IMG/VR virus record: IMGVR_UViG_3300037114_000023
Coordinates: 1-54,605 of that record
Direction: 5' to 3' (one strand)
DNA length: 54,605 nucleotides
From: a virus
Made by a program: the position numbers and the translations under genes. Numbering within the stretch: the first letter of the stretch is position 1; each line of letters starts with the position of its first letter. The notes beneath the pieces are model-generated. The model was not told the origin of the DNA. It was given only the letters and a program-made list of their open reading frames with translations, and searched no databases. Below are positions 28,883 through 54,605 of the stretch, piece after piece.

Positions 28883-28894
28883 TTGGCGAATCAG

Positions 28895-29467
28895 ATGGGC
28901 AAAGACTTTACATTGCTGGTAAAAGACCACTTCACCACCAGACCGAATGACATCCGCAAGGGCGCACTCATGCTGGATTATCAGGTTCGCAATCACGATG
29001 GCGTTGACTACGATGGAGTCGGCATTGGACCGGACCCAGGGATTAAACCGCTAATCGAGGACGCAGTGGGATTTACAATCAAGCAACGGCTTCTGTTCTT
29101 CCGGCTGGGCATGACAGGGATAAAAACAGCGGGCTATATTCATTGCGACCAGAATTGTGGTCAATACGCAGGCGTCCTTTATTTGAACCTGCCCCACCAG
29201 CGTTACGGCGGCACTTCATTCTGGAGGCACAAGGAATTTGAGATAAGCGAAATGCCGGACAACGCGAACGATGTCGCCGTGGCGACTCTCCGCAATGACA
29301 GTCTGGACGAAAGCAAGTGGGAACGCGACGGGCATGTCGAAATGCGCTTTAACCGATTTGTAACTTATCCGGCGCGACGTTTTCATAGTCGCTATCCGAA
29401 TGTCATTGAGGCTGCGACGAAAGAGGAAGGCCGGTTGATTCTGGCCGTTATGTATGACCGAGTCTGA
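28895..29467 (+). CDS. 2OG-Fe(II) oxygenase (DUF6445-like)
   Basis: 190 residues from ATG 28895; a TTG at 28883 is an upstream alternative. The double-stranded beta-helix motifs are visible: H83-x-D85 in 'YIHCDQNCG', then 'AGVLYLNLPHQRYGGTSFW', and the distal iron His164 with Arg166 for 2-oxoglutarate in 'ARRFHSRYP'. Such enzymes hydroxylate small molecules, proteins or nucleic acids. The family sits beside sugar or peptide modification genes in many bacteria. It overlaps the methyltransferase by 14 bases. The metal triad is intact, so activity is likely; the substrate is unknown. Confidence 0.75.
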   Translation: MGKDFTLLVKDHFTTRPNDIRKGALMLDYQVRNHDGVDYDGVGIGPDPGIKPLIEDAVGFTIKQRLLFFRLGMTGIKTAGYIHCDQNCGQYAGVLYLNLPHQRYGGTSFWRHKEFEISEMPDNANDVAVATLRNDSLDESKWERDGHVEMRFNRFVTYPARRFHSRYPNVIEAATKEEGRLILAVMYDRV

Positions 29468-30083
29468 AACATTCCGCCAGCAGTTCAAGCAGCATCACTC
29501 TAAAGAGTCTGCCGACACGCTCATGCTGTCCAACATCGCGCACCTTGAACGGTTGATGAAGTTGCTGCCGCCAAACGCGCGCGGTCTTGAAATCGGCTGC
29601 TTCAAGGGCGGAGCGACCGTCTGGTTTCTGGAACACGGGATCGAGCGCATGACGGTGATTGATACCTTCGAGGGCAGCCCGGAGCATCAGAACATTGTGA
29701 AGCCGGGCGAGATACGGGCGGCGTTCGACGAAGCGGTCAAGCCCTACGCTGGCCGTGTGGCTGTGAGCAAGGGGAAGTCCAGCATGAGATTGCCGATATT
29801 ACTGCAAGGCAATCATTCCGGTCTCCGAAAGACCGCTCCAACGCTTTACGATTTTATCTACGTGGATGGGAGCCATGATTCTGTTGACGTGGTGTTGGAC
29901 GCCATACTCGCGTTCAAGCTGCTCAAGCCGGGAGGGGTGATGTGCTTTGATGATTACGAGTGGTGCTATTATCTCGACGCTTTCAGGAACCCGAAGCCCG
30001 CGATTGACTTCTTCCTTGCGAGCCATGAAGGGAAGTTTACGTTGCTGGAAAAGCATTATCAGGTGAGCATTCGGAAATTATGA
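29454..30083 (+). CDS. Class I SAM methyltransferase (TylF/Methyltransf_24-like)
   Basis: 209 residues. Motif I is 'LEIGCFKGGATVWF' (about 45-58), the acidic end of strand 2 is 'TVIDTFEG', and motif IV/V are 'YDFIYVDGSHDS' and 'LLKPGGVMCFDDYEW'. The 'VDGSH' and 'DDY' phrases are typical of the TylF/macrocin-O-methyltransferase and CmcI-like clade, which act on sugars or small molecules with a metal. It is coupled to the oxygenase, suggesting a joint pathway. A protein or glycan substrate is possible. Confidence 0.75.
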   Translation: MTESETFRQQFKQHHSKESADTLMLSNIAHLERLMKLLPPNARGLEIGCFKGGATVWFLEHGIERMTVIDTFEGSPEHQNIVKPGEIRAAFDEAVKPYAGRVAVSKGKSSMRLPILLQGNHSGLRKTAPTLYDFIYVDGSHDSVDVVLDAILAFKLLKPGGVMCFDDYEWCYYLDAFRNPKPAIDFFLASHEGKFTLLEKHYQVSIRKL

Positions 30084-30152: not shown

Positions 30153-30509
30153 ATGCAAGAATTGAATGAACTCGCGCGCGCTCTTGTTGAGCGGTGGGAG
30201 CATCAGCATAACCAAATAATGTCCGCCCTTCAACGGGTGGAGCAACAACAGGAAAAAATAATGAGCGCAATCACAGACTTCGCAGCCGCCGCACAGGCGA
30301 GCTTCACCAAGGTAAGTGCCGATTTGGACAGTCTCTCGACTGACATCGCCGCCTTGAACGCACAAATCGCCGCCTTCAACAATTCATCCGGCACGTTGAG
30401 CGCAAGCGATCAGGCCGCACTGGACGGTATCCAGACAGCCGCAGCCGCCCTGGCGACCAAGGCCGACGGGATTGTTCCCGCACCGCTGCCTCCGGCTCCG
30501 ACAACGTAA
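30153..30509 (+). CDS. Helical coiled-coil protein
   Basis: 118 residues with a fair ribosome site (AGAAGG) before the ATG at 30153. The first ~35 residues form a coiled coil (HNQIMSALQRVEQQQEK), and the rest has Ala-rich heptads (LDSLSTDIAALNAQIAAF) and a Pro-rich end. A later start at 30261 is possible. Small proteins of this kind are common in tail regions. It is the last gene before a terminator. Confidence 0.55.
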   Translation: MQELNELARALVERWEHQHNQIMSALQRVEQQQEKIMSAITDFAAAAQASFTKVSADLDSLSTDIAALNAQIAAFNNSSGTLSASDQAALDGIQTAAAALATKADGIVPAPLPPAPTT

Positions 30510-30529
30510 CCGACGACACAAATAACTTG

Positions 30530-30560
30530 AACGCCCGTCAGAAATGGCGGGCGTTTTTGT
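30530..30560 (+). terminator. Hairpin terminator with GAAA tetraloop
   Basis: An 11-bp stem (30530-30540 with 30545-30555) with one G-U pair and a GAAA loop is followed by TTTTGTTT. It ends the oxygenase/methyltransferase unit. Confidence 0.85.
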
Positions 30561-30606
30561 TTGCAAGCGTGGGATTTTGAAACTAGCCTGAGAGCCATCA
30601 AATAAT

Positions 30607-31386
30607 ATGCGAGTCTTTATCTCCGCTCACTGCCGCAACCCCGACCTGTTCGACGCCACGAAATTCGTTTTCAAAACACTGCGCGTCGGATTCCCGAACT
30701 CAGAAATAATCGTTTATGACAACGCCCTGAGCCAGCTTCACCGTTCCGAGATACAGGAACTTTGCCGGAAAAACACCTGCAAGTTTCAGCATATCCCACA
30801 GGCGGTTTCCTACGGCGGTTTAATCTGGCAGATATTCAGCAGCATACTCGCCAGCGATCAGGATGAACCGTTCTGGCTGTGCGACACCGACATCGTGTTC
30901 TGGGATAGCATGGAGCAATTTGAATTCGAGACGGCGATGGCTGGCCGGCATATCCCCAAGTTTTTCGACACGTACACAAAGTGCATCACCATGCCGCGAC
31001 TGCATACCAGCCTGCTTTACATTGACCCCGCCAAAGTTCGCCGGGAAATGGACATGCTGCTCGAAAACTTCCCCCGCGAGACGCCGCACAATCCGATGGT
31101 AAATCCGGTTTTCCCATTTTTCATGCCTTCACCCGAGGGCAAGGACGAATATTTCTTCTATGATTTGTGCGCGCCGATGAGTTATATGTTGAGCCAGACG
31201 CGGTTTACCGAGAAACACCTTGATTGCTTTGACCACGCTAATTGCGGCACGTTTGCAGACCTCCTGGAACCGCATGGACACGAGGGAATGGTGGCGCGAC
31301 AGAAGGCGATGTTTGCGAATCCGGAGACGATGCGCGGATTATGGAAAGAGCAGGATAAATATTTCGCGTATCACGCCGTCAAATGA
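30607..31386 (+). CDS. GT-A type glycosyltransferase candidate
   Basis: 259 residues. 'RVFISAHCRNPDLFDATKFV' starts a Rossmann-like fold with a Lys/Arg-rich helix, then 'SEIIVYDNA' and the metal-binding DxD at 93-95 (FWLCDTDIVFWD). 'PRLHTSLLYIDPAKV' resembles the acceptor side of GT-A enzymes. It would transfer a sugar from a nucleotide sugar to a protein, glycan or DNA base. The stop overlaps the cupin start (ATGA), so the two are co-translated. Confidence 0.7.
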   Translation: MRVFISAHCRNPDLFDATKFVFKTLRVGFPNSEIIVYDNALSQLHRSEIQELCRKNTCKFQHIPQAVSYGGLIWQIFSSILASDQDEPFWLCDTDIVFWDSMEQFEFETAMAGRHIPKFFDTYTKCITMPRLHTSLLYIDPAKVRREMDMLLENFPRETPHNPMVNPVFPFFMPSPEGKDEYFFYDLCAPMSYMLSQTRFTEKHLDCFDHANCGTFADLLEPHGHEGMVARQKAMFANPETMRGLWKEQDKYFAYHAVK

Positions 31387-31904
31387 AAACTGATTCACAG
31401 CCGGTAATCGAACTTGGGCCATCCGTCGGGGATGTCCTGGAGGATTTTGTCGCGTGGTATCTCAAGACCTTTGGCGGTGTACCGCCGTCGCCCCATGACG
31501 GCGTGGGTTACGTCGGAAAGTTTTCCCTGCTGACTTTCTACCGGCAAAAGGAGTTTCAGGTTCAACTCACGATTTGCAAACCGAACTCCAGGATTCCCGA
31601 CCATGCCCACCCGAACGTGGACACGATGGTTTCGTACGTTTGCGGCGAACTCTATTTCAGGGTTGACGGGAAAGAGGTTTTCAAACCGGAGGATATTTTC
31701 CAGACGGAGGACGGGCGCACGTCCAAGAATTTCAAGTTTATGCGCGTCAAGCCGGGGCAGATGCACGGGGCGACCATTGGTGACAAGGGGGCAGCGTTTA
31801 TTACTTTTCAGCGGTGGCTATCCGGCACGCCGAAAAGCGTGGAGTTGGATTGGGATGGACCGCCACTCAGCAAGGAACATTCAGAAAGGGAACTATATAC
31901 ATGA
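31383..31904 (+). CDS. Cupin-fold protein
   Basis: 173 residues. Cupin motif 1 is 'RIPDHAHPNVDTMVSYVCG' (H74, H76 and downstream residues) followed by 'ELYFRVDG', and motif 2 has 'VKPGQMHGAT' (H128), so a metal site is likely. The protein could be an isomerase, dioxygenase or sugar-binding protein. It is coupled to the glycosyltransferase before and the DNA methyltransferase after (ATGA overlaps at both ends), suggesting a sugar-modifying partner. Confidence 0.65.
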   Translation: MKTDSQPVIELGPSVGDVLEDFVAWYLKTFGGVPPSPHDGVGYVGKFSLLTFYRQKEFQVQLTICKPNSRIPDHAHPNVDTMVSYVCGELYFRVDGKEVFKPEDIFQTEDGRTSKNFKFMRVKPGQMHGATIGDKGAAFITFQRWLSGTPKSVELDWDGPPLSKEHSERELYT

Positions 31905-32398
31905 CACCACTAATTGACCGTGTTTGGGAAATGCCGAACCGTTTTACGTTTAAAATGCGTTGCGTAGCGAGCCTTCTCAAAGAAGAAATGCAAGGCACAT
32001 GGATTGACCCATTCGCCGGTGAAACCAGCCCAGCACAACTGCGCAACGATGCAGATGAATCACGCCATGCGGAACATCACTTAGACGGTCTGGATTTTTT
32101 AAAATCTCTACCGGATAAGACTTATGATGGCATTCTATTTGACCCGCCCTATTCGGTGACACAAGCCTTGAGGAAATATAAACCACGACAAGGAGGCACG
32201 GCGGGGCGAAGTGAGTATTGGGCCAAGTGTATGGACGAGGCGGCACGTGTCATAAAAATTGGTGGCAAGGCAATTTGCTTTGGATGGAACTCAAACGGTC
32301 TCGGAAAAAAACGTGGATTTCGGTTGGCACGCATGTTGGTAATTGCGCATGGAGCCTGCCACAATGACACGATTGTAACAGTAGAGACAAGTATATAA
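31901..32398 (+). CDS. Orphan adenine-specific DNA methyltransferase
   Basis: 165 residues from the ATG that overlaps the cupin stop. Motif I is 'WIDPFAGETSPA', motif IV is 'DGILFDPPYS', and the end reads 'ICFGWNSNGLGKKRGF' and 'HNDTIVTVE'. This order matches a widespread family of small phage N6-adenine methyltransferases. It lacks a separate target-recognition domain and has no endonuclease partner here, so it is probably used to protect phage DNA or for regulation. The DPPY catalytic motif is intact. Confidence 0.75.
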   Translation: MTPLIDRVWEMPNRFTFKMRCVASLLKEEMQGTWIDPFAGETSPAQLRNDADESRHAEHHLDGLDFLKSLPDKTYDGILFDPPYSVTQALRKYKPRQGGTAGRSEYWAKCMDEAARVIKIGGKAICFGWNSNGLGKKRGFRLARMLVIAHGACHNDTIVTVETSI

Positions 32399-32420
32399 TT
32401 CCCTTCAGAAAGGCTAAAAG

Positions 32421-32687
32421 ATGAAATGCAAACATGAGCAATTTGAGGCCAAGGTGGATGTCAACAGACTTTCCGACAGTGGGAGGTTCTGCGCTGACAT
32501 CAAAATAAAGTGCCTCCAATGCGGGGAGTATTTCCGTTTTCTTGGGTTGCCGTGCGGGATTGACCTTGACGGTGCGGCGGTTTCCGCGGATGGAACGGAA
32601 ATGCGCGTGGCGATTGGAACCAATGAGACGGTGGCGAACATCATTGACGGAAAATGTCCAGTTGGATTCACTGTGCGCAGGGGATGA
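32421..32687 (+). CDS. Conserved phage zinc-binding protein
   Basis: 88 residues. A Cys/His pattern (MKCKHEQFEA and IKCLQCGEYF) is followed by 'RFLGLPCGIDLDGAAVSADGTE', a phrase seen in many tailed-phage proteins of this size that I recognise but cannot assign a role. It overlaps the acetyltransferase start (ATGA). Confidence 0.65.
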   Translation: MKCKHEQFEAKVDVNRLSDSGRFCADIKIKCLQCGEYFRFLGLPCGIDLDGAAVSADGTEMRVAIGTNETVANIIDGKCPVGFTVRRG

Positions 32688-33127
32688 TACGCGCACTACA
32701 ACCATACGAAGTCGGCCTTTGCGTCGAAGGCGGCAAACTCTTTTTTAAGGAGGGCGATCTTCCGGGAGGCTTCGACGCCAAACATTTCTGCGCCACTTGG
32801 GCGCAACTAATCACGGACAAACGGGCGGCGATTCTCGCGGGATTCACGGATGCCAATGTCATCACGGGTGCATTGGGCGCTGTGCTGGCTCCCGGATTGT
32901 TCAACGCCAAGACTTACGCCACCGAAGCATTTTGGTACGTGATACCTGGCTATCGCGGCCACGGCGTCGAACTTCTGCTGGCTTTTCAGGAGTGGGCCAA
33001 GAACGCCGGGGCGCACTACGTAGCCATGATTCACCTTCTCAATTTGCAGCCGGAACATCTGTCGAGACTGTATCGGAAAATGGGGTACAACCCCATTGAA
33101 ACAAACTACTTGAAGCCGCTTACGTAA
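32684..33127 (+). CDS. GNAT-family N-acetyltransferase
   Basis: 147 residues from the ATG overlapping the previous stop. The acetyl-CoA loop is 'FWYVIPGYRGHGVELL' (R/Q-x-x-G-x-G/A type), followed by a helix (FQEWAKNAGA) and the C-terminal 'LYRKMGYNPIETNY' typical of GNATs. It could acetylate a virion protein, a host protein or a small molecule. Similar genes lie before ejection-protein genes in other podoviruses. Confidence 0.75.
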   Translation: MIRALQPYEVGLCVEGGKLFFKEGDLPGGFDAKHFCATWAQLITDKRAAILAGFTDANVITGALGAVLAPGLFNAKTYATEAFWYVIPGYRGHGVELLLAFQEWAKNAGAHYVAMIHLLNLQPEHLSRLYRKMGYNPIETNYLKPLT

Positions 33128-33151: not shown

Positions 33152-34375
33152 GTGAACAATTTTCTTCTTAATCTCAGCCGTGTGTTGGCTTATAGCGTGG
33201 TTTACGAAACCCGCTTGGCGATGTTTGACGGTGCGGTGATGGAGGCGTTTGACCCACAAGGAAGTATTGTGAGCGGAACAATCGGCGCGATATTAGGCTC
33301 GAACGCCCAACGCCAGGCGGCCGATACGGCTGCTGACGCAGCCAAGGCATCGCAAGCCGCCACCAATGCGCAAAATCAGTCGCTTTTTAATCAGGCCCAT
33401 GGATCAACAGGAAGTGCTGTTTTCCCTCAGTATTTGACTGGCGAGGGCGGGGCGGGTCTTTTCGAGCCGGAGCTTGGGCAAGATTTGGTAAAATCCTACG
33501 CAGCGGCAAACGTCCCGCTTTCCACTTTCCAATCGGCCACGGACAAAACGGCTGGCGCACGCAATCAAGCCCTTGACTTCACCAACAGCATTTTCAACGG
33601 CGGCGTGACAAACAAAATGCTGACGAATGTGGCTCCGGTCCAGACGCAACGGCTGGCCACGGCGCGGTCATCCTCGCTGGATGCGTTGCACAAAACCTTG
33701 GACCAGATTGACGCGAGCCAGGCCAATCGGGGATACGTGGGCGACAGTTACGGAAACCGGCTTTTGAGTTTCCAAGCCGGAAAAGAGGCGGGGAATTCCA
33801 TCGGTGCCGCACAGTTGCAAAACAAGCAGGAGACGGCGGACATCCAGAATTATGGAGACGTGACGCTGCCTTTGCAGAACATCAACCTGCCGTATCAGAT
33901 GAACCAGCAACAGGCATCGGCGGCGTTTCTTCCGCAGGACGAATATCTGGCGAGTCTTGGGCAGCGGATGCAGCCTTTCAACATGCTCAAACTCGGATAC
34001 ACAGGTCCATTCCAGTATCAGCCGTTGCCGACGCGGGGGCCAGCGGCGTTCAATTCAGGCGCGACAGCACTATCGGCGTTCGGGGGTGGCGCGGGACAAC
34101 TGGGCGGCGCGGCGATGAATTATTTCGGAACCAACAATCTTTTGAGCAGCGGATACGGGGGTTCGACCATTGGCAATGGCGCCAGCTATGGCCAGCTACC
34201 GTCTGGTTTCAGTGATACCTTGACCGAGGACAATGCGAGCGATCCGTTCTATGCGTCCGGCGCGGCGGCTGCGGGCGCGGGTGTTGCGAATAACGGACTT
34301 GATTTTAGCGGGTCAACAGCATCGGGTGTGGACTCATTAACCGGCGGAAGTTCGCTGTTTGGGGGGAGCGTTTAA
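33152..34375 (+). CDS. Internal virion (ejection) protein candidate, T7 gp14-like position
   Basis: 407 residues from GTG 33152; ATG at 33239 (about 378 residues) is an alternative. A glycine-containing hydrophobic stretch near the N-terminus (GSIVSGTIGAILGSN) is followed by long Ala/Gln-rich helices (AADTAADAAKASQAATNAQN) and a Gly/Ala-rich C-terminus. These features match DNA-ejection proteins that insert into the membrane. It precedes two further large internal proteins, as in T7 (gp14, gp15, gp16). Confidence 0.55.
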   Translation: MNNFLLNLSRVLAYSVVYETRLAMFDGAVMEAFDPQGSIVSGTIGAILGSNAQRQAADTAADAAKASQAATNAQNQSLFNQAHGSTGSAVFPQYLTGEGGAGLFEPELGQDLVKSYAAANVPLSTFQSATDKTAGARNQALDFTNSIFNGGVTNKMLTNVAPVQTQRLATARSSSLDALHKTLDQIDASQANRGYVGDSYGNRLLSFQAGKEAGNSIGAAQLQNKQETADIQNYGDVTLPLQNINLPYQMNQQQASAAFLPQDEYLASLGQRMQPFNMLKLGYTGPFQYQPLPTRGPAAFNSGATALSAFGGGAGQLGGAAMNYFGTNNLLSSGYGGSTIGNGASYGQLPSGFSDTLTEDNASDPFYASGAAAAGAGVANNGLDFSGSTASGVDSLTGGSSLFGGSV

Positions 34376-34376
34376 T

Positions 34377-35924
34377 ATGGCAGAAGCAGTCGTATCACCA
34401 GCGGTAAGGCCACTTGACTTTGGTTATCAGATTCCGAATCTGACAGACCAGATGCGTTCGGCCAGCGCCCAGACCTCGCAGGCAGCGGCTCCGATTGCCG
34501 AGGCGGCGTCAAACTTATCCAGGGCAAGAATCGAATTCGCGTTGCAGAATTTGAACGCGCAAAAGGCTTTAGAACTGGCAGGGTGGCAGCATCAGTCACA
34601 GATGCAGCGCAATGAAATGATGTATAAGAGGTTTTTGGATCAGCAGAAACTCAAGGGCACTCAGATGCTTGAGCAGATCAAGGGAAAGAACGACGCGGAC
34701 ACAATTAAACAGCTAAACACCACGATTCAAAGATATGGCGGACAACCGATGGTGCGTCAGAGCGGTGAGAGCGACAGTGACTACGCGGCCCGGCTTGGAA
34801 CTGCGGCAGTAGGCGCGAAGGCGCACGCAGTCGCAGCGGACACCACGGCAGCACTTCATTGGAATGATGAACTCGAAAAACAGAAAGATGCGGCGACTAG
34901 GTTGCAGGCACTTCCGGCGGTCAAGGCAGAGTTGGGGGCGGCACTCGCAAATCCCGGAGTGAATTCACAGGCCGATAATTATGTCGCGCAAAACTTTAAC
35001 AAATGGTTGAGCCAAGTCAGGCCGGAGCAGGCAGACCTGATAATGACGGCGTTACAGAAACAGCCGAATAAAGACGGCGAGATGATGGTGCTTAAAAACG
35101 CCGGGATTCTTGCTCAGTATCAGGATTTCAGGAATGGTGCGTTGCAGGACGAGGCGTACCGATTCCTTAAAAATGCCGGTACTCCGCAGGGAAAAGCGTT
35201 GGCGACGATTAATGAAAACATAAAATTTGCCCAGGATAGGTACAACGGTGTGCTGATGACGGAGGCGAGCGGGAATACTGGGAGACAGGTTAGAAAATCC
35301 TACGCATCGGATATTGAGAACGGTGTTCAAGATACGCTGTTGCAACGGAAGAATGACGCAATAAAGGCAGCTCAGACCCCGCCACCACCCCCTGCGGGTA
35401 GCGGATCTGGGACTACCATCCCAACCCCAAATGGTGTCACCCCGCCGCCACCGTCCCTTTTCGGGCCGGGAGCGAGTGTGCCGGCCAGATTCTTGCAGGA
35501 TAATGTGGCAACTCCAACAGTCAGTGCCCCAGCAAACCCGAACCCTATGTCTCCGCAGTGGACAACGCTGCCAAACGGCGCGCGAGCTTTCATCCCAATG
35601 CCTGTGTCTCAAAGCGACCGCACAAACGGTGTGATATTGCCGGGTGGCAGTATAAACCCGTACTTACGGGCACCTGTCATTGGGCCACCAGAAAACGCCA
35701 TAGCAAACGGGGTAAACCCGCCCGGTGGAGTGACGAACTCACCCGCGACAATGATGCCGGCAAGCCCATTTCTCGTCCCGCCAGTTTTGCCCGGCCCTCG
35801 CGGCGTGTCTGTTTCTCCCGACAATTACGCGCCCGCTGCGCCGCAAGGTTCTCCGATGGACGCTGGTGGCGACTACGGAAGTTTCCTGCGAGATCAATAC
35901 TTTATGGGCATGGGTGTGCAGTAG
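34377..35924 (+). CDS. Internal virion protein candidate, T7 gp15-like position
   Basis: 515 residues from ATG 34377, preceded by a purine-rich GGGGGGAG. The first 330 residues are helical with coiled-coil features (AGWQHQSQMQRNEMMYKRFL), and the last ~180 are Pro/Asn/Gly-rich and disordered. It sits between the gp14-like and giant proteins and probably forms part of the ejectosome. There is no sequence signature beyond architecture. Confidence 0.5.
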   Translation: MAEAVVSPAVRPLDFGYQIPNLTDQMRSASAQTSQAAAPIAEAASNLSRARIEFALQNLNAQKALELAGWQHQSQMQRNEMMYKRFLDQQKLKGTQMLEQIKGKNDADTIKQLNTTIQRYGGQPMVRQSGESDSDYAARLGTAAVGAKAHAVAADTTAALHWNDELEKQKDAATRLQALPAVKAELGAALANPGVNSQADNYVAQNFNKWLSQVRPEQADLIMTALQKQPNKDGEMMVLKNAGILAQYQDFRNGALQDEAYRFLKNAGTPQGKALATINENIKFAQDRYNGVLMTEASGNTGRQVRKSYASDIENGVQDTLLQRKNDAIKAAQTPPPPPAGSGSGTTIPTPNGVTPPPPSLFGPGASVPARFLQDNVATPTVSAPANPNPMSPQWTTLPNGARAFIPMPVSQSDRTNGVILPGGSINPYLRAPVIGPPENAIANGVNPPGGVTNSPATMMPASPFLVPPVLPGPRGVSVSPDNYAPAAPQGSPMDAGGDYGSFLRDQYFMGMGVQ

Positions 35925-35939
35925 TTAAATGGTCAAGCC

Positions 35940-38900
35940 ATGCCTGACCAACTCACAATAGAACAGCTTTTACAAGGTACTCCAAAGATACCGGAGGAAG
36001 GCGGACTGGATTCGCCCGCGCCACAGTCGAAGGGTAATCAGCCAGCGAGCACGTTGACGCTGGAGGGTTTGCTCAAGGGGACACCAGGGGCGGATCAGGA
36101 CGCAGTTCCACAGACTACCGCAATGGGCACAGCCGCACGCGCCGCAGTCTCGAACATCGGACCGGGTGCGGCTGCGGCGGCGGCTTTTCCGATTGGCGCG
36201 GAAAAGGGCGCTGCGATAGGGGCGCTTGTGCCCGGTGCGGGGGAAACCGGATTGTCGGAAGCTGCTGGAGGGCTAATCGGTGGAACCATCGCGGCAGGCG
36301 CGGCGGCATGGGCGGCAGCAAAGGCCCAACACGCACTAGCCTCGACGCTGGCTCCCGAGACCACGGAGAAGTTCAACCAAGCGGAAGCCGCGGGCGAGGA
36401 AGCGCATCCCGTTGCGGGTGCGATCGGGCGGCTGGCCACCATGCTTCCAATGTTCGAGTTTGCTCCGCAGAACACGGTGGGCGGACTATCGGCGCTTTAC
36501 AAGGCGGCTCGTGGCGGGACGCTCACGGTGGCGGAGAAGCTGGCGGCCAAAACTACAGCGAGTCAGGTGGGATTGCAGACCGGTCTTGGGGTGGTTCAGC
36601 CATTGATGTTTGGAGAAAGCCCGACAAAGAAGGGGATTGCAGAGGCTTTTGTCCAGTCACTTTTGCTGGGGCATCCTCGATATGAGATTTTTGGCGCTCC
36701 GGCAGCGGAGGCCATTGGGAAGGAGGAGGCGGCGACGGACGCGCAGACCGAGAAAGCGCAGGGTGTCGTTCAAAATCCAGCCTCAATCTACAGTCCGCCG
36801 CCGCCGCCCGACTTGACGCCGGAACAGCGCGGGCAACTGTCGGAATTGGCGGCTCGCACGGCATCGGGCGCGCCGGAGGACGTGAACGACGCCCAGCATT
36901 TGAAACTAATGGGCGAGAATGAGAACGCCCGGAAGTATTACGAGCAGCAAAAGCAGGGTTGGGCGCAACTCATGGCCTACACGCTGGCCGGCAAGTCCAA
37001 GATTGAGACGGTGGGGGATGGTGGTCAGGAATCTCCGCAAGCGCAGCCTCAAAAGTGGTATTCCTCAAATGATTCCGTTGGTCCAAAGCAGACACCACAG
37101 GGCGATACAATTCACGGATTATCACTCAGCCAAGACCCGCTTTACGCCGGAGAGTATTCAAAGACTGGGCAGGTTCACGAATTCGACTTGTCTGGGGCAA
37201 AACTGAAACCTGTCAGTTTTGACTATGGGATGACCATTACCACCGACAAGTTGAATCAAATCAGGTCGGAGGGTTACGACGGGGTATCGTTCGATGGGAT
37301 GCATGGCCCGGAGGTCGCTCTGGTAAACGATGTGGCTAAAAAGACCGGAACCGTCAACGCCTTGCAGGAGAAATTCAACGAGGCGATTGCGGACGGCAGG
37401 CCAATAGGGCGAGTGGAGCAGAGGCTCTACGCAGTGAAGGGCTTGCAGTTGCCGGAGGTTTACCACCAGCAGGAGGATGGCTCATGGATACGCGCAACCG
37501 AACCTGGAAAGCCACCTGGCGGCGATGCTGCACGCCTCGAACAACTCCGCGCCATCCCAGAGTCCCAACGCACGCCGGAACAGGCCGCGGAATTCAACGC
37601 GCTTGTGGCTAAATCCGGTTCCGTTAAGGACCAGATGGCGGCTGAATTTGCGAAACTCAAGGCGGCACAACCAATAGTTGACCAACCGGTAAACAATCCG
37701 CCCGTGGCTCCCGGCGGCAGCACACCCGCGATGGCGGAGTGGACTAAACATCAGGGCGATCCCGCTGAATTAGTCCAGAGGATGCAAAACACGGCTGAAT
37801 CCGGCAAGGTGGCCGTGGCGACTGGCGAGGGCGGTGTTGGCAGGAAGTCCGCCACAATGTATCAGGATTTGACCGGCAAGCCCGCTGGCGAAGCCAAGGA
37901 GCTTGTGCGGCAGGACGTGGCTGGATCCAAGGAAGCCGGGGCGCAATCCCGCAAGCTGGTGGCCATGCTGTCCCCGGACAAGTCCCATGTTCTCGTCGGG
38001 ACGGCCAGCGAAACCAGGAGCGGCGAGACGCGGACTTTGAAGGTCTCGACCTACGATGTGGGTGCTGGCCGTAAATCGCCCGGCGGTGAGCATTTCGCCA
38101 GCAATTACGATAAAATGGTGGCGGATGGCTGGCAGCCGTTGGCGAGTCTGAAAACCGACAAACCGGCCAAGGGATTCTTCGCTACGTATTCGCCAGAGCA
38201 GTGGAAAACCATTGAGACGGAACTGCGGGCGAGCCATCAGGCGGCGCAACGCACGGCGGAGGCGATGGAGCAACACCTTGCGGCTGGCAAAGACTTTGGG
38301 CGCGACGTTACCGTTAACGCTGACGAAACCGGAGAACACCCCCCGGAGGAAGCGCCGACACCTGAAGCGGCGGTTGAACACCCGCCGGAACGGGTTGTAA
38401 CGGCTGAACATGCGGAGGCTATCGCAGAGGCAATCAAGGGCTTAAAACCCGAGGACATTGCCGACCAGAACTCGATGGCGTTAGCGATAAAGAAGGCCGG
38501 ACCGGATGCGGTCGAGGCTTTCAAGGTCATGGTTCGCCATGCCTTCGATGCCGGTTTTCCAGAAGATAAAGCGGTAAGTATCGTGCATGAAATACTTTAT
38601 GAACATTCAAGAAGCGGCGAAACGAGTGGGCCAGAAGTGGAAAAGTCCTTCCTACAGAAAGTCGGCCAGGGCGGCGATGAAAACGCTGGGAATAACACCG
38701 GGAAGCCTCCAGGTCCAGACACAGGACCAGGTAGCGAAGCAGCCGGAAATAAACCAGGCGCAAGCGGAACTGAAACGGGAGCAAACCCAGATGCAGAAGG
38801 TGGCGGCAAAGGAGGGAGCAAACCCAATCCCGCAGGTACTCCCCTCGGCACTCCCGCCAGCATAGCCGGAAAGACAGGTAAGATTTTTCTGCCGGCCAAG

Positions 38901-41900
38901 CTGGAAAGGCCGCATGACATCGTGGACGAGATTCAGGGTCAGGTGGGTAAGATACGGTCGCAGAATGCAGCCAAGCCCGGCACGGAGGATCATTACGCCA
39001 CAGACGCTTATAAGCAGGTTCGCAAGGCGTTTCCCAATATGTTCTCCGATACCGGCAGCACGGCGGACCAAGTGGTATCCGCGCTCATGCGAACCGGCCA
39101 CTTTCAGGAAGGGGCCACCGTGGATGATTTGTGGGATGCGATGCTGCGCGCGCGCGGCGAGCGGACGGCTCATGCCCGCGGCCAGTTGCCGGAACAGAAG
39201 GCGGACAAGTTTCAGCAGGCGGTATCGGATAATCTTGCCAAAAAGGGTAGCCACAAGCTGTCGGTCGGCGAACTGTCGGTCGGCGACACGTTCAGGATTA
39301 AAGGCGCGAGCTTCGAGGTAAACCATATTGATCCGGACACCGGAGAGGTCCAGGTAAAGGATGGCAAGAAATTCGGCTATCAAGTCATCCCGGATGGTGC
39401 GGACATAGCCGTGGATGCTGGTTCGCTAAAGCAAAATCCTCCGGAATCCGGCGGTGACGACCCGTTCTCGGACGAAAATGTCCGCAATCGCACGCGCCAG
39501 GCCAAGGAGGAAGTTGAGAATCTTCGCCCGGGGGACGCCCATACCGCGAGAACGCTGGACGTGGTTGAGCGCAACCTTACCGCACTCGGCATCAAGGTCA
39601 GGCGGATTATTGACCCGTTGGTTGACCATTTCAGCACAGGTTCGTACAAGGAACTCACCAATGGCCGGGGCAACGCGGAGAGGATTGTCACCTACTCGGT
39701 AGCTGACGCCCACAAGCCATCGGCTGACAGCCTCGTCAGTCTCTACCACGAGGTTTTGCACGCGATATTCGCCAGGGAAAGCCCGGAAATGCAGGCGGCG
39801 GCGCAACGGGCGGTGCGGGACGTGTCGAACGAGGAATTGGGAATCGGCAAGTTCAAGGAGCAAGTCCCTCAAAATTTACCGGAAAACGTGAGGGAAGGCG
39901 TCCAGCAGGAAGGGCGCATAGCGGAATCTCTGGCCCGAAAGCTGGTCAACGACGGATTTGACCCAGTGACCGCCAACAGCTTCATGCAACGCGCCGTGCG
40001 GCTGATACGGGACGTTTACAACGGCGCACTCATGGCACTGGCCAAGGTGGCGGGGTATCCCATCAGCCAGGAACGGGCACTGGCGTACTTCGAGAACCGG
40101 ATGAAGATGGTGGTTTCCGGCGATATGATGTCTTGGATTAACTTCCTCGGTGGACCAAGGATGAAGATGCCAGACTGGGACAGCCCGAACATCGGCGGCG
40201 TGGAGCGTTACCGCAGCATCAACTCAGTCAGTAACCCGCGCAAGTATCTGGACACCAAAGAGGGCGCACCGACGGGAATTGCCGCACTCAACCACTTTTT
40301 GACTTCGATGAAGGCCATCGCCCATGAGTGGGGCGTCTCCGCTGGCAATCTCGCCGGCATGACGGACGAGCAGGTCATGGCACGATATATCAACCTGCCG
40401 GAAAAGCTGGGCGACCAGGATTTGTTCACGAACGGCGACACGCCGCAAAGCCTGATCGCCGACGCGGTAAAGCAACACGGCGTTAGTCCAGACACTAAAA
40501 TTAGTGATTTGCCTAACGACGTGGCCAAACAACGGGCCTTGGTTGTGACACACGGAATGCTGTCCGCGGTGAAGGCGGAAATGGAGGGTGTCGCAGGCGA
40601 GGCTCGCACGCAATGGAACAAGGACGCTAACGCATTGGAGCGCAATACCAGCCAACTTGACCGCCTGGCCAGTCATTACGTGGACATTGATTACATGGCC
40701 AGGACGGCCAGGGACTCGATGCTGCAACTCGTCAAGGACGTTACCGGCGCCGTCCGGGGCATCCGGGATGTCTCGGCGAGAAAAGGCGAGGTCGAACAGA
40801 CCTTGGCGCAACTGGACCCTGCCAGCCAACTCAACGGCCAGTTGACGGCGCCGTACCGGAAGGCACTTGATGTAATACAAAAACGGCTGTCCGGCGAAGT
40901 GACCACGAATTTCGCGGATGCTCTGCAAACCATTGGCAGCATGGACATTGACTGGAAACGACCGAGCCATGACATTGCCAATGACTTGCTCGCCAAACAC
41001 AGTGAGAACCCGGAATTGAACCATGCGCTTCGGGAATTCCTTGGGGACAATCCGGAGTCGAAGGCGTTGCTGTCCACGTTGATTGCCTACGGTAAGGCCA
41101 ACAGTCATATGATGGACATGCTCGCGCTCCGGGCCGACCGCGCCAGCGAGAATAAGATTGAGGCTAACCAGATTTTGCGGGACATGGTGGGCGCGAGCAA
41201 GGGAATGCTCGCGGAACTCAAGCAGCGCATCAATTCCACGTTCGGGAAAAACATGCGGATGCGCGACCGGATGCTCCGGATTTCCGATAAGATGGATGAT
41301 TTGAGCGACCGCAACCATGACCTGTTGGACTCCATTGCCCGCAATAAATCGCTGGTGGACTTTCATGAGGACATTTTTAAACCGGCGGTGAACGGGGAAC
41401 TTGCGGCCGTAGAGAAGGAAACCGGCATCACGCTCAAGAATTTCGAGGTTGTGCATGACGCCGAAGTCTCCGTCCCTGCCAAGCCCGATGCGACCCCGGA
41501 CCAGTTCGCAACGAGAACGCTTAAAATTCGCACAGCCTTGGGCAAGCGCGGCGATTTGCCGACGCCATCGGCGGAGGTCATCGGCTGGCAGCGATCAATT
41601 CAAAAGTGGCTGGACAATCCGGAGAACCTGAAGTACGGGGCCAAATACAACGAGATGGCGGACGTGGCGCTGAAACTGAAAAACCACGCCATCAGCAATG
41701 AACACCTGAATATCAAAACGAATTTCCTGGAACGGATGCTCGCGCCGATACAGGACCGATGCCGACAGGCCGGGACAGAGGCGGCGCGATTGGCTGGGCA
41801 GGGGTTTAATAAATTCTCGTCGCTCGTCCGTGGCAAGCGGGAAATGGCCGTCCAGACCGGCACCAATTTTTCCGCGCAACTCAGCCGGGCAAAGAAGGCG

Positions 41901-44900
41901 TTGGGCTATCCCAACGTCGAAAACGGCGTCTTTTGGAAAACCATTATCTCGCCGCAGCTTCACGCCTTGCAGGATCGGGCGGACATCTGGGGGACTGCCA
42001 AGACGGAAAAGGAAATGATTGACCGGGCAGTCAACGCTGTCGCGGATGCCTTGAAGCTGAAAGACCCAGCCGCCAGGGATGCGGTTTCCAAGCTCATTCG
42101 GATTCACGCGGACAACTCGACCGAACTCCGCAACCACGGCGCGGAACTGGGGAACAAAGTCAAGGACATCGGCGGCGCACCTAAGAGCAGCATCTTCCGT
42201 CTGGCGCTGGGCGTTGCTCCCCTTGTGCTGCCCAGGGCGACCACGGCTCAGGCGATTGATTTTTACCACGAACACATGGGGCGGTCATGGGGTGGTGATA
42301 AATTGGATCTTCCGGCAATACGGGACATGTACGACAAAGACCCGGATCAGTTGCGGGCATCGCTGCAAAACCGGTTTACCAAGCCGGTGTGGGATTGGTT
42401 CGTGAAGTCACTGGCCGAAAATGACAAGCCGCACTTCTCGGCACCGCCGGAGAATGGTCTTTCCCCGCTGGCCGACCGCGAGAACATCATTAAGGCATAC
42501 CAAGGGGCGCACGGCGATCCTGTGGCGTTTGCCGAACTGATTGCCGCGCTGCACGACCACAAGGCCGATGGCGCTTTCGTGGCCGACACCTTGGATACCA
42601 TGCAGAATTTCAGCAACTTGCTGCGAACCATGGCCGGTGACGAGGCGGAGTCCGTGACGCGGGGAAGTCCAAACCCGCCGCGCTTCATCGTGGACGCCCG
42701 GCATTGGGAAGCCGCGCCGAAAGAGTGGTGGGATTACCTGATGACCGACCAGAACACCATGCTCCGGGTGATTAACGGGCAGGCGCACCAAGCGGCCTTT
42801 GGTCGAAATGGCGAGGCTCAGGACAATCTGCTGTCCACCGCCATGAACGAGCAGCGGGAATTCTACACGAAATATCAGGCATGGCGACAGGAAGCGCAGA
42901 ATGTCAATCCCGGCATCAAAGAACGGGAGTTGCAGGCCATGTTGAAGGCGCGCGCGGAGAAGGAGGGTATTTCCTTCGACGCGCTTAAAAACGCCAAGCG
43001 AAACTTGAACGGTTTGACCAACGCCGCTCAGCATTACGACGCCATTCAGTCCATGAACAATTCCGGCAAGATACCGGAACTCCTGCCGTGGCTCCGGGTG
43101 TTGCATACGATTGCCGGCGGGACGGTGGCCGGTGCCGGTACAGCGATCACGGCGCACAGCGTCTTTCTGGAGCAGCCGGCGAGACACCTTGGGTTCGGCC
43201 CGCGCTCGCTGGCGATGACCGGGCGTGCCATCACCGATTTGGCCGGCACGATGGCGAATTCATTGTTGCAGGCGTTCGGTCATTCCGTGGTTTACGAGGC
43301 GCGGCGCACGCTGGACGCCAATGATGGCGGCATCTATGACCCGATTAACACCAATAAAGACCGCTACACGGTGGCCTATGAACACGCGCACGCGGCTTAC
43401 CGCGACTCCAGCAGGCTCGGGCAGACGGTCGGCACCGCAGCGGATGTCGGGGCGGCGGCGATGCAACATGACGTGTGGGGGCCGGGAGCGCGGGAGAAGG
43501 CATTGGCGCGGCAGGCGGCGGGGCAGCCGGTGGCGCCCAGCCTCAAGGCGTTGTCGCCCTTCCATTGGATTGCCAAATGCCTGGAGATTTCCAACTTCAT
43601 CACCTGGGAGCGGCATATTGAGGGTATGGTCGCGGCCGGGGCGAATCATTTTGAGTCAAACCCGGAACACTACGCGGACAATGATTTCAGGTTCACGCCC
43701 AAAACCCTCAACGGCTTCAATCCCGGCGACCGCGAGTTTAATTTTCTGAGTGACCGTCTGGCGCAGTACGGGGCGAGCATCGAGCAGCTTTCGCGGGAAG
43801 CCTATGACAATCGCGGGACCAGCAAGCCGATGTTGTCCCATGAAATGCGGAAGAACATCCAGCAGGTCGTGCTGAACGAGATAACGCTGGAATCGTCACT
43901 GACGAGCCGGATGCCGTCACTCCAAACCAAGGGACTCGGCACGGCGATGAATCCGTTTCTGGGGTGGCCGCTGCAAAAGACCTATCAGGTTATGCGGGGG
44001 TTCCGGCAACCGGACGGCGTGGCTTCGGCTTTCCGAAACGGGCTGACGCCATACCTGGCGATCCTGCCGCTGGGCATGGCGGCGGCATGGCTCCGCAACA
44101 AGTTCGACGAGGACGTGCTGGGGAGGAAGCAGAATGTTTCAGACATCAGCCAGATACATGACGTGAAATCCGGCCTAATGACCGCCCTGGACAATGCGAG
44201 CCGCGTGGGAACCTTCGGACTGCTGGGCGAGGGAGCGAATTACTTTTTGAGCAACGACAACGTGCGACCGCTCTCGGTGGACAACCGGATTTTCTTCCTG
44301 AACACCTTGGAAAACGCTTTCAATGCCGCGCGCGGTTTGTATCAGCAGACCGGCCCGCAAATTATGGCTGGAAACTTCGAGGGTGCGGAAAAAACCGCGA
44401 CGGATTATCAGACGGTCTGGAGGCCGATAATTCAATCGCTGGGCGGCAATGGATTGCTGCAAAACCTGGGTGCGGTGAATCATCTCCTGGCGATTGACGA
44501 CGCGGAAGCCCGCGTGAGCAACCGCATCTCGGTGAACAATTACCTGCGGGTGGCTGGCCGCGAACTGAATCTCGATGTCCGCACGTTTGGCGGGATGATG
44601 TCCGATCAGAGCGTGCCGGGTCCGATCAAGCCGTTTGTGGGAAAGATGGTGTTGGCGGCTTACGCGAACAACAGCGAGGACTTCAATTCCTCGATGCGCG
44701 ATGCGGTGCGGCAGGCGAAAACCGAGGGCATGACCTCCGACCAGGCGATGAAAAAAGTGGTGGGCATGTACGAGGCGCAAAGCCCGATCCGGATCGTGTT
44801 CAAATCTCCGCCGACGGAAATGGAATACCGGAAGCTCATCGCTCAACTGCCAGACAACGGGAAGCAATCCGTGCAACAATCCATCGCGCTATTCAACCAT

Positions 44901-45035
44901 TTTGGCCAGCAGATTGGCGCGAACCCAGTGACGTTCGGGAAGGACAAGGCGGATAAGCCTATCATTTTCGACTCCGGGGCTTCTTCGGTTTTGAATCGGC
45001 TGCGGGGGCAAAGGGCTACGGTTGGGGCGTTTTAG
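35940..45035 (+). CDS. Giant polyvalent virion protein (3031 aa) with metallopeptidase and ART-like segments
   Basis: 3031 residues in one open frame, the last rightward gene. The N-terminus has a 12-residue motif twice (LTIEQLLQGTP at 5-15 and LTLEGLLKGTP at 39-49), then an Ala/Gly-rich hydrophobic region (about 60-135) suited to membrane insertion. Residues about 370-470 resemble a small ADP-ribosyltransferase fold (LSLSQDPLYAGEYSK, SEGYDGVSFDG, EVALVND). Residues 1270-1274 are HEVLH, a zinc metallopeptidase motif, with acidic helices downstream. A Gly/Pro/Asn-rich linker lies at about 885-980. The rest is mainly helical with hydrophobic patches near 2390 and 2710. Size and place match gp16-like ejected proteins and 'large polyvalent proteins' of phages. 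Its end overlaps the opposing gene by 20 bp. Confidence 0.65.
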   Translation: MPDQLTIEQLLQGTPKIPEEGGLDSPAPQSKGNQPASTLTLEGLLKGTPGADQDAVPQTTAMGTAARAAVSNIGPGAAAAAAFPIGAEKGAAIGALVPGAGETGLSEAAGGLIGGTIAAGAAAWAAAKAQHALASTLAPETTEKFNQAEAAGEEAHPVAGAIGRLATMLPMFEFAPQNTVGGLSALYKAARGGTLTVAEKLAAKTTASQVGLQTGLGVVQPLMFGESPTKKGIAEAFVQSLLLGHPRYEIFGAPAAEAIGKEEAATDAQTEKAQGVVQNPASIYSPPPPPDLTPEQRGQLSELAARTASGAPEDVNDAQHLKLMGENENARKYYEQQKQGWAQLMAYTLAGKSKIETVGDGGQESPQAQPQKWYSSNDSVGPKQTPQGDTIHGLSLSQDPLYAGEYSKTGQVHEFDLSGAKLKPVSFDYGMTITTDKLNQIRSEGYDGVSFDGMHGPEVALVNDVAKKTGTVNALQEKFNEAIADGRPIGRVEQRLYAVKGLQLPEVYHQQEDGSWIRATEPGKPPGGDAARLEQLRAIPESQRTPEQAAEFNALVAKSGSVKDQMAAEFAKLKAAQPIVDQPVNNPPVAPGGSTPAMAEWTKHQGDPAELVQRMQNTAESGKVAVATGEGGVGRKSATMYQDLTGKPAGEAKELVRQDVAGSKEAGAQSRKLVAMLSPDKSHVLVGTASETRSGETRTLKVSTYDVGAGRKSPGGEHFASNYDKMVADGWQPLASLKTDKPAKGFFATYSPEQWKTIETELRASHQAAQRTAEAMEQHLAAGKDFGRDVTVNADETGEHPPEEAPTPEAAVEHPPERVVTAEHAEAIAEAIKGLKPEDIADQNSMALAIKKAGPDAVEAFKVMVRHAFDAGFPEDKAVSIVHEILYEHSRSGETSGPEVEKSFLQKVGQGGDENAGNNTGKPPGPDTGPGSEAAGNKPGASGTETGANPDAEGGGKGGSKPNPAGTPLGTPASIAGKTGKIFLPAKLERPHDIVDEIQGQVGKIRSQNAAKPGTEDHYATDAYKQVRKAFPNMFSDTGSTADQVVSALMRTGHFQEGATVDDLWDAMLRARGERTAHARGQLPEQKADKFQQAVSDNLAKKGSHKLSVGELSVGDTFRIKGASFEVNHIDPDTGEVQVKDGKKFGYQVIPDGADIAVDAGSLKQNPPESGGDDPFSDENVRNRTRQAKEEVENLRPGDAHTARTLDVVERNLTALGIKVRRIIDPLVDHFSTGSYKELTNGRGNAERIVTYSVADAHKPSADSLVSLYHEVLHAIFARESPEMQAAAQRAVRDVSNEELGIGKFKEQVPQNLPENVREGVQQEGRIAESLARKLVNDGFDPVTANSFMQRAVRLIRDVYNGALMALAKVAGYPISQERALAYFENRMKMVVSGDMMSWINFLGGPRMKMPDWDSPNIGGVERYRSINSVSNPRKYLDTKEGAPTGIAALNHFLTSMKAIAHEWGVSAGNLAGMTDEQVMARYINLPEKLGDQDLFTNGDTPQSLIADAVKQHGVSPDTKISDLPNDVAKQRALVVTHGMLSAVKAEMEGVAGEARTQWNKDANALERNTSQLDRLASHYVDIDYMARTARDSMLQLVKDVTGAVRGIRDVSARKGEVEQTLAQLDPASQLNGQLTAPYRKALDVIQKRLSGEVTTNFADALQTIGSMDIDWKRPSHDIANDLLAKHSENPELNHALREFLGDNPESKALLSTLIAYGKANSHMMDMLALRADRASENKIEANQILRDMVGASKGMLAELKQRINSTFGKNMRMRDRMLRISDKMDDLSDRNHDLLDSIARNKSLVDFHEDIFKPAVNGELAAVEKETGITLKNFEVVHDAEVSVPAKPDATPDQFATRTLKIRTALGKRGDLPTPSAEVIGWQRSIQKWLDNPENLKYGAKYNEMADVALKLKNHAISNEHLNIKTNFLERMLAPIQDRCRQAGTEAARLAGQGFNKFSSLVRGKREMAVQTGTNFSAQLSRAKKALGYPNVENGVFWKTIISPQLHALQDRADIWGTAKTEKEMIDRAVNAVADALKLKDPAARDAVSKLIRIHADNSTELRNHGAELGNKVKDIGGAPKSSIFRLALGVAPLVLPRATTAQAIDFYHEHMGRSWGGDKLDLPAIRDMYDKDPDQLRASLQNRFTKPVWDWFVKSLAENDKPHFSAPPENGLSPLADRENIIKAYQGAHGDPVAFAELIAALHDHKADGAFVADTLDTMQNFSNLLRTMAGDEAESVTRGSPNPPRFIVDARHWEAAPKEWWDYLMTDQNTMLRVINGQAHQAAFGRNGEAQDNLLSTAMNEQREFYTKYQAWRQEAQNVNPGIKERELQAMLKARAEKEGISFDALKNAKRNLNGLTNAAQHYDAIQSMNNSGKIPELLPWLRVLHTIAGGTVAGAGTAITAHSVFLEQPARHLGFGPRSLAMTGRAITDLAGTMANSLLQAFGHSVVYEARRTLDANDGGIYDPINTNKDRYTVAYEHAHAAYRDSSRLGQTVGTAADVGAAAMQHDVWGPGAREKALARQAAGQPVAPSLKALSPFHWIAKCLEISNFITWERHIEGMVAAGANHFESNPEHYADNDFRFTPKTLNGFNPGDREFNFLSDRLAQYGASIEQLSREAYDNRGTSKPMLSHEMRKNIQQVVLNEITLESSLTSRMPSLQTKGLGTAMNPFLGWPLQKTYQVMRGFRQPDGVASAFRNGLTPYLAILPLGMAAAWLRNKFDEDVLGRKQNVSDISQIHDVKSGLMTALDNASRVGTFGLLGEGANYFLSNDNVRPLSVDNRIFFLNTLENAFNAARGLYQQTGPQIMAGNFEGAEKTATDYQTVWRPIIQSLGGNGLLQNLGAVNHLLAIDDAEARVSNRISVNNYLRVAGRELNLDVRTFGGMMSDQSVPGPIKPFVGKMVLAAYANNSEDFNSSMRDAVRQAKTEGMTSDQAMKKVVGMYEAQSPIRIVFKSPPTEMEYRKLIAQLPDNGKQSVQQSIALFNHFGQQIGANPVTFGKDKADKPIIFDSGASSVLNRLRGQRATVGAF

Positions 45036-48636: not shown

Positions 48637-48710
48637 AATCTCAAATAAACGACCAGCGCGACGAGTGGCGTCAAGGCCACAGCGACCAGGATTAGGAAGG
48701 CGGTTAGCAT
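48633..48710 (-). CDS. 25-residue membrane peptide
   Basis: The ATG at 48710 overlaps the end of the integrase gene (CCATGCTAA) and the stop overlaps the next ATG (ATGA). The peptide is one hydrophobic helix (TAFLILVAVALTPLVALVV). Same length and style as the peptide at 386-463. Confidence 0.55.
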   Translation of the reverse strand: MLTAFLILVAVALTPLVALVVYLRL

Positions 48711-50490: not shown

Positions 50491-50956
50491 AGGGAGTTTG
50501 TGGCGGCTCTGGCGGCGCGCTGGCTTTCGCTTTGGCATCCTTCGCTTTTTTGTTTTCATAGATTCGTTTCCATTCTTCTGACGCGGTCCTGACGAATTGC
50601 CGCTGGTAGTGGCGCCGCAGCCCGGCCCTCCGGCTGTTCACCGCAACGCGCCACTTTCGCAGCTTCAAATCCACCGCCGTCAAGCGCTTGATAAAATCGT
50701 CTATCCGCTTTCTCCGTTCCTTGTGCAATTCCGCCACTGCGGCCGCAATCTGCCGTGCCAAGGCTTTCGAGTCGTCCTTCCGAAAAGCGTTCACCAGGAG
50801 TTTCCGCTGATGATAAAGCTCGCCCAGCTTGACGCCTGCCGCCTTGATTTGCCTGTCCTCTTTTATCCATGCGATGACCTGTTTTTTGAAAGCCGGTGTG
50901 AACTTGAATGTCGTAAGGCCGACATCGAGATAGGAATGGTCATGGTGTCCTCTCAT
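50477..50956 (-). CDS. Basic helical protein, unknown
   Basis: 159 residues, strongly basic with coiled-coil features (HKERRKRIDDFIKRLTAVDL) and a Lys/Ala/Pro end. The start overlaps the stop of the ATPase gene (ATGA). It may be a DNA-binding partner of the HerA-like ATPase. Confidence 0.55.
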   Translation of the reverse strand: MRGHHDHSYLDVGLTTFKFTPAFKKQVIAWIKEDRQIKAAGVKLGELYHQRKLLVNAFRKDDSKALARQIAAAVAELHKERRKRIDDFIKRLTAVDLKLRKWRVAVNSRRAGLRRHYQRQFVRTASEEWKRIYENKKAKDAKAKASAPPEPPQTPYDRD

Positions 50957-52746: not shown

Positions 52747-52752
52747 TGGCAA

Positions 52753-54468: not shown

Positions 54469-54496
54469 AGGTTTTACTTTTGTTTTGTTTCTACCC

Positions 54497-54605
54497 CGAC
54501 CGCGACCGCGACCCCGACCACGACCCCGACCGCGACCCCGACCGCGACCCCGACCGCGACCGCGACCCCGACCACGACCCCGACCGCGACCCCGACCGCG
54601 ACCCC
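54497..54605. repeat. Tandem repeat of 54-bp units at the right edge
   Basis: Eighteen hexamers of the type CGACC(G/C/A) run to the end of the window. They form two identical 54-bp units (54497-54550 and 54551-54604), each with nine hexamers ending in the order G,G,C,A,C,G,C,G,C. The array lies directly upstream of the 54468 ATG and reaches the edge, so its true length is unknown. It could be an iteron-like or structural region, coding low-complexity sequence, or an assembly artefact. Confidence 0.8.

Follow-up and report, generated by a model that had tools for sequence, protein, structure and literature searches.

A recurrent pairing of glycosyltransferase and cupin genes near DNA-injection-type gene clusters of uncultured phages: a candidate virion-modification module

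The virus record IMGVR_UViG_3300037114_000023, a single record of 54,605 bases whose whole length is called here the window, encodes a TerL-like protein (7791-9386) and an integrase (48704-49819; phrog_1, E 2.6e-18), and therefore probably belongs, from its gene content, to a temperate tailed phage. Its segment 26000-34500 has no near match among 50,697 named phage records (megablast with the 8.5 kb). Between a fibre-like gene and a group of ejection-type genes lie five consecutive genes that code for a glycosyltransferase (GT), a cupin, a small DPPY methylase-like protein (MTase), a small cysteine-containing Zn-type protein and a GNAT-family protein. An earlier annotation made without database searches (the sequence-only reading) had described these five genes at the positions of Table 1, with ATGA joins at most junctions, and both points stand: 4-nucleotide (nt) overlaps are found at three of the four junctions (GT/cupin, 31383-31386; cupin/MTase, 31901-31904; Zn/GNAT, 32684-32687), the MTase and Zn genes being separated by a 22-nt gap. 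Homologues elsewhere show the GT, cupin, MTase and GNAT to be real genes. The GT and the cupin each represent a conserved phage family that has no annotation and has retained its active site, and the two recur together close to a DNA-injection gene cluster.

The GT contains the stretch FWLCDTDIVFW with its DTD motif. Profile searches gave no Pfam hit above cut-off (best DUF6734, E 0.13) and no PHROG or NCBIfam match; there was no meaningful sequence match in the PDB, and neither tblastn against named phages and plasmids nor single-sequence scans of viral contigs and of genome contigs retrieved a relative. A motif pattern around FWxxDxD selected 12 stretches from uncultured viral contigs, 12 of which encode GT relatives (E 4.8e-34 to 1.4e-51). 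Alignment-based scans yielded at first 17 relatives among 33 stretches and later 48 among 69 stretches, in 47 loci; two of the alignments, A4 and A8, pool unrelated proteins for joint scanning. With the window included the set comprises 48 loci, which form 32 clusters at 80% identity that are not fully independent of each other. A collection of 84,980 species genomes holds a single GT locus (one of 20 stretches), flanked by transketolase and DnaB genes in a metagenome-assembled genome of Spartobacteria (L114:10001-10786), and the same assembly accounts for the one match in 387 genomes of its phylum. As far as the scans reach, the GT family is thus essentially viral; the Spartobacteria copy points, if faintly, to the phylum in which these phages may find their hosts.

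The AlphaFold model of the GT (pLDDT 92.2) has a predicted GT-A fold. Its best structural matches are UGGT, GlyE, GT8 and LgtC, with Z scores of 10.6-11.3 over 177-205 residues; the tool states typical best values of 7-8 for models without a clear match, against about 10-11 here. XXYLT1, COLGALT1 and LH3 are also matched. UGGT, GlyE, XXYLT1, COLGALT1 and LH3 are protein-modifying glycosyltransferases, so that the structural matches include such enzymes, a resemblance that by itself shows no function. Nine residues are invariant in all 48 sequences: D93, D95, G113, R131, H133, D186, F200, H210 and G244. D93 and D95 form the DxD metal motif, and D186 and H210 are assigned, from sequence order only, as the putative catalytic-loop acid and C-terminal metal-binding histidine. 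PMC7185993 describes the DxD motif of GT-A enzymes as a metal ligand, and likewise a C-terminal histidine in LgtC. The window protein is probably a metal-dependent GT-A enzyme.

Two further families were seen around the GT. A second, GT2-like glycosyltransferase (HILFLDADMVV, recognized by eye) lies directly 3' of a cupin-GT pair in L199:10744-11367 and L206:10711-11370, giving a cupin-GT-GT operon. A family of ~150 amino acids (aa) with invariant DDxxD and D...E adjoins the GT in 16 of the 32 clusters (L104:10001-11254; L099:10735-11687; alignment A7) and is fused to it in four (L104, L197, L214 and the L200 cluster). It perhaps corresponds to phrog_21390; searches with it gave no PDB match, no meaningful Pfam match and no match in the window.

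The window cupin scores below every Pfam cut-off. It found no match by tblastn against named phages and plasmids and none in a single-sequence scan of viral contigs, and two of its relatives used as tblastn queries found none in the 50,697 named phage records. The pattern HxHPNVD...G, built from the window sequence and from recall of phage cupins, retrieved 85 stretches with a cupin homologue in 85 of 85. Alignment A1 (58 cupin rows) then detected at least 328 viral relatives among 346 stretches; 80 loci were retained. The model (pLDDT 83.3) is predicted to adopt a double-stranded beta-helix, with a Foldseek cupin match at E 3.1e-7 and cupin folds matched up to Z 13.3. The three-histidine site, an HxH motif plus a C-terminal histidine (H74, H76 and H128), is present in all 76 rows, 19 from GT-linked cupins and 57 from others; an acid lies near the site, Asp at position 80 in 57/57 of the others and Asp or Glu in 15/19 of the GT-linked proteins. 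Membership of the window cupin in the PCO/ADO thiol dioxygenases was rejected (PF07847, E 0.025, 14.4 bits versus a cut-off of 27); the PCO_ADO profile is matched by 34 of the 58 A1 members (best 1.4e-5).

The surroundings of the cupin family were surveyed in 156 loci (58 clusters at 75% identity), with 97 same-strand immediate neighbours scanned. Among the matches listed, the best 25 of 162 families in which a single protein may match several, the commonest are terminase large subunit families (8, 7, 6, 5 and 4 members), besides portal (6), head assembly (3), scaffold (3), major head protein (2) and phrog_1249 acetyltransferase (2). The cupin is therefore a general companion of virion genes. 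It occupies varied slots of the head and packaging module, for instance portal-cupin-scaffold, between tail genes or beside TerL, in hundreds of uncultured phages (L002-L086, L126-L196).

The sequence-only reading had singled out the GT and cupin as a pair, and a neighbourhood survey bears this out. The 822,514 nt of the 48 GT loci contain 19 cupin hits, all 19 within 671 nt of a GT, in loci that are centred on the GT and leave cupins beyond about 10 kb outside view. A cupin stands beside the GT in 12 of the 32 clusters (A1 profile E-values for short cupins, 1e-10 to 4e-4). The order is GT-cupin in two clusters (the window; L126/L203) and cupin-GT in ten, and the two genes overlap by 4 nt in 7 of the 12 paired clusters, starts of open reading frames being assigned mechanically. 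Cupin presence switches at least five times on the GT tree. L217 and L212 agree almost completely in the gene upstream and have closely similar GTs; a cupin is present in L217 only, exactly between that gene and the GT. In 19 of the 32 clusters, counting the doubtful L111, the GT is followed at up to about 4.6 kb by an open reading frame of at least 1000 aa. Cupins of other types were also noticed at GT loci. In L113 (1144-1994) the GT is preceded by a relative of Asp/Arg-hydroxylases (PF05118, E 2.1e-8) together with a weakly matching AraC-type cupin, and in L223:5211-6086 and L224:10870-11745 a cupin-like gene (AraC-type, by eye) lies directly 3' of it; cupins of other types may stand in for A1 at this position.

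The one clear relative, L126, indicates which genes travel with the pair. Homologues of the following window proteins are encoded there in unchanged order: a virion structural protein (1.3e-58), the fibre (1.4e-9), GT (1e-47), cupin (2.9e-48), GNAT (4.7e-52), ejection-type protein 1 (6e-17) and the giant protein (1.5e-35). Its genes run fibre-GT-cupin-GNAT-protein 1-protein 2-giant, with the GT overlapping the fibre gene by 4 nt. The 20-kb L126 stretch has no match to the MTase, Zn protein, DUF6445 protein, S-adenosylmethionine (SAM) methyltransferase or coiled-coil gene. Because of this content, of the G+C fraction at third codon positions (0.43 in the MTase versus 0.64-0.67 in GT, cupin and GNAT) and of the scatter of MTase relatives over 66 phage records, GT, cupin and GNAT are taken as a core and the other genes as cargo, a division drawn from one relative. 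The MTase, Zn protein, DUF6445 protein and SAM methyltransferase look like variable cargo. The sequence-only reading had counted seven modifying or metal-binding proteins between fibres and ejection proteins. The number holds when the DUF6445 protein and SAM methyltransferase are included, with the coiled-coil gene lying among them; a single seven-gene modifying unit is rejected, as L126 has GT, cupin and GNAT and lacks the MTase, Zn, DUF6445 and SAM methyltransferase genes. The virion structural protein found no match in a single-sequence scan of viral contigs or by tblastn against named phages and plasmids. Between its gene and the fibre gene, L126 carries a hybrid histidine kinase/response regulator (L126:6638-8248; PF00072, PF02518).

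Table 1. Genes and signals around the GT-cupin pair of the window
Feature	Positions	Strand	Evidence
Fibre-like protein, 767 aa	26109..28412	+	phmmer match to 323-aa gene directly 5' of GT in L126, E 1.4e-9
DUF6445 protein, putative variable cargo	28883..29467	+	PF20043 E 5.7e-10; phrog_1644 E 3.7e-17
Class I SAM methyltransferase, putative variable cargo	29454..30083	+	PF13578 E 2.4e-13
Coiled-coil gene	30153..30509	+	homologue near GT in L107, E 6e-15
Terminator-like hairpin, strong, shortly 5' of GT	30529..30556	+	12 pairs; -22.8 kcal/mol for 30521-30570, z -4.25
Predicted GT-A-fold glycosyltransferase, core, 259 aa	30607..31386	+	48-locus viral family, predicted fold, invariant residues
Cupin with three-His site, core, 173 aa	31383..31904	+	A1 family, predicted fold, invariant His
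Small DPPY methylase-like protein (MTase), putative cargo, 165 aa	31901..32398	+	phrog_11619 E 1.1e-38
Small Cys-containing Zn-type protein, putative cargo, 88 aa	32421..32687	+	CxH and CxxC, by eye only
GNAT-family protein, core, 147 aa, best start 32684	32684..33127	+	PF00583, phrog_1249, L126 homologue E 4.7e-52
Ejection-type protein 1	33152..34375	+	L126 homologue E 6e-17, directly 3' of L126 GNAT
Ejection-type protein 2	34359..35924	+	position between protein 1 and giant protein
Giant protein, 3031 aa, putative large internal/ejection protein	35940..45035	+	order and size; L126 homologue E 1.5e-35

The GNAT assignment is supported by PF00583 (25.4 bits against a curated cut-off of 20.7) and phrog_1249 (E 1.7e-13), and relatives occur in 49 named phage records. 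In the five regions examined, the genes that follow the relative code for the portal or a head-tail connector (SP6, Alpheus, ctVRi840), for internal virion proteins B and D (ICBM1) or for needle/injectosome components (Pam1). Since its phage family adjoins portal and internal virion genes, the GNAT may serve assembly. A part of the Cobavirus paper (PMC6775973) proposes that the GNAT could correspond to T7 gp13 and suggests a role in morphogenesis; identity with gp13 by sequence was rejected (hhalign probability 2.4), relative position alone being similar. The GNAT profile finds the gene in 3 of the 48 GT loci (window, L203, L102). The L099 GNAT is backed only as half of a combined L099 and L102 profile (hhalign 96.6), and a gene upstream of the GT in L109 was rejected as a GNAT (hhalign probability 0.2).

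The MTase, read earlier as an N6-adenine methyltransferase, is a phage DNA-methylase relative by its sequence: the phrog_11619 profile recognizes it and DPPYS is invariant in six of six sequences. Its 165 aa leave little room for a separate target-recognition domain and none is evident. Its preferred start is the ATG at 31901, the GTG at 31814 chosen by the program implying a 91-nt overlap with the cupin. The Zn-type protein, labelled so for a cysteine motif recognized by eye, has no Pfam, PHROG or NCBIfam match, no match in L126 and no relative found elsewhere.

Among the remaining genes, the fibre-like and giant proteins have no Pfam or PHROG match and ejection-type protein 2 has no meaningful one; the real start of ejection-type protein 1 may be the ATG at 33239. 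The DUF6445 protein resembles by eye a 2-oxoglutarate- and Fe-dependent oxygenase (HxD...H...R), and 'minor coat protein', the name of phrog_1644, may be a mislabel. On the minus strand, 50953-52752 encodes a second protein scoring as 'terminase large subunit' (phrog_2666, E 2.5e-20); the likely TerL is the 7791-9386 product and this one is perhaps helicase-like. A GACCCC/GACCGC tandem repeat (54490-54605) closes the record, whose end may therefore be an assembly break.

The recurrence of the GT-cupin pair suggests that phages carrying it chemically decorate their own particles. For the window we propose, as a reading with an even chance of being right, a late virion-modification module GT-cupin-GNAT between fibre and ejection-type genes, in which GT and cupin modify a tail or ejection protein; of the targets put forward by the sequence-only reading, the slot among virion genes favours the virion. 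The GT would act late in infection, using a nucleotide-sugar as donor and glycosylating a structural protein encoded in the same cluster, either the fibre or an ejection protein. The three-histidine cupin would share this acceptor or the sugar as its substrate, most probably modifying a side chain in an O2-dependent reaction, or else isomerizing the sugar. The GNAT-family protein would assist or modify internal virion proteins as in other podoviruses, and the MTase, Zn, DUF6445 and SAM methyltransferase genes would be cargo gained and lost. The scheme builds on observed gene order, family assignments, predicted folds, invariant residues, the repeated GT-cupin linkage and the setting among virion genes; the timing, the sugar donor, the acceptor and any benefit to the phage are, like catalysis itself, its conjectural parts. 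A more specific version is unlikely: a virion-maturation pathway of short-tailed phages in which an iron-cupin would hydroxylate side chains of a tail or ejection protein and its partner GT would attach a sugar to the hydroxyl so formed, much as collagen is hydroxylated and glycosylated. The two genes would form a cassette swapped among phages and joined in some by a helical DDxxD protein, an Asp/Arg-hydroxylase or a second GT.

Several observations weigh against the proposed module. The A1-type cupin is missing from 20 of the 32 GT clusters, and a GT is found in none of the first 85 cupin loci and in one (L126) of 71 further ones, so neither gene strictly requires the other. In six clusters, which have no cupin, the GT is flanked by DnaB- and TerL-like genes and is distant from those for fibre and ejection proteins. 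The neighbourhood of the pair showed no sugar-nucleotide genes, the 'ejection' labels derive from gene order and size without family matches, and fibre and ejection-type proteins are candidate acceptors only. The hairpin 5' of the GT leaves room for separate expression and a host-directed role, in a region where terminator-like sites overall are not in excess (11 versus 11.1 by chance).

Such a role is the main competitor, distinctly less probable than virion modification: in a lysogen or late in infection, GT and cupin would alter a glycan of the host and so block superinfection or rebinding of progeny. An integrase in the window phage, a perhaps separate unit behind the hairpin and the match of the GT model to LgtC, an enzyme acting on a surface glycan, speak for it. 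In L126, however, the GT overlaps the fibre gene and the run continues into GNAT and ejection-type genes, the GT slot among virion genes recurs, and no flippase or lipid-linked-sugar genes were noticed beside the pair. It is doubtful, in turn, that structural genes simply attract unrelated small cargo and that GT and cupin hitch-hike side by side with no shared function. The MTase, Zn, DUF6445 and SAM methyltransferase genes do behave like this and the cupin is common without a GT, but all 19 cupin hits lie beside a GT (a rough chance product of 1e-10 over 12 clusters, taken as independent), both gene orders occur and the active sites of both proteins are kept. Very improbable is a modification of virion DNA as counter-defence, with MTase and GT making a modified base as T4-type phages do: the DPPY methylase-like gene in the operon is the sole point in favour of the earlier suggestion of DNA modification, the MTase has no match in L126 or other GT loci searched, searches of the block against Pfam, PHROG and NCBIfam matched neither a hydroxymethylase nor a base-synthesis family, and nothing in this analysis speaks for avoidance of defences.

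Phages that carry glycosyltransferases, methylases and GNATs are already known. What is new is the two families, GT and cupin, and the finding that they recur as neighbours close to injection-type gene clusters; literature searches at the level of titles and abstracts gave no description of a phage GT-cupin pair or of the A1 cupin family. If ejection or tail proteins are modified, many uncultured short-tailed phages would use protein glycosylation in building or deploying the injection machine, an idea testable by expressing two or three small genes.

Phage-coded glycosyltransferases acting on virion proteins have been described in mycobacteriophages, where enzymes of Che8 (gp110), Corndog (gp38) and Myrna glycosylate virion components (part of PMC12363180). 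Type of enzyme and target would be the same for the window GT. In the mycobacteriophages the modified structures are capsid and tail tube of long-tailed phages, and the same part of that paper mentions no cupin partner. With the GT8/GT24-type enzymes LgtC, GlyE and UGGT, and with COLGALT1/LH3, the window GT shares the predicted GT-A fold (Z about 10-11), the DxD motif and a putatively equivalent C-terminal histidine, at an identity of 7-12% in matches above Z 10. The window cupin similarly shares the predicted cupin fold (Z 13.3 to 10.6) and the HxH...H site with PCO/ADO dioxygenases and small cupins (PMI 7zvm, KdgF, BacB, DddK); its family differs by a conserved extra C-terminal motif, W..G..P(T/S)SV..D, and by its own phage context. 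The MTase is 41-49% identical to phrog_11619 'DNA methyltransferase' proteins of Streptococcus, Staphylococcus, Serratia and Croceibacter phages, with DPPYS and GWN in common; in the five regions examined (L121-L125) those relatives are not among virion genes, their annotated neighbours including replication, resolvase, nucleotide-metabolism and regulatory genes. The window GNAT is a sequence relative of the phrog_1249 GNAT of cobaviruses and Pam1, and occupies the same place that the latter has before the genes of internal virion proteins B and D or of the needle.

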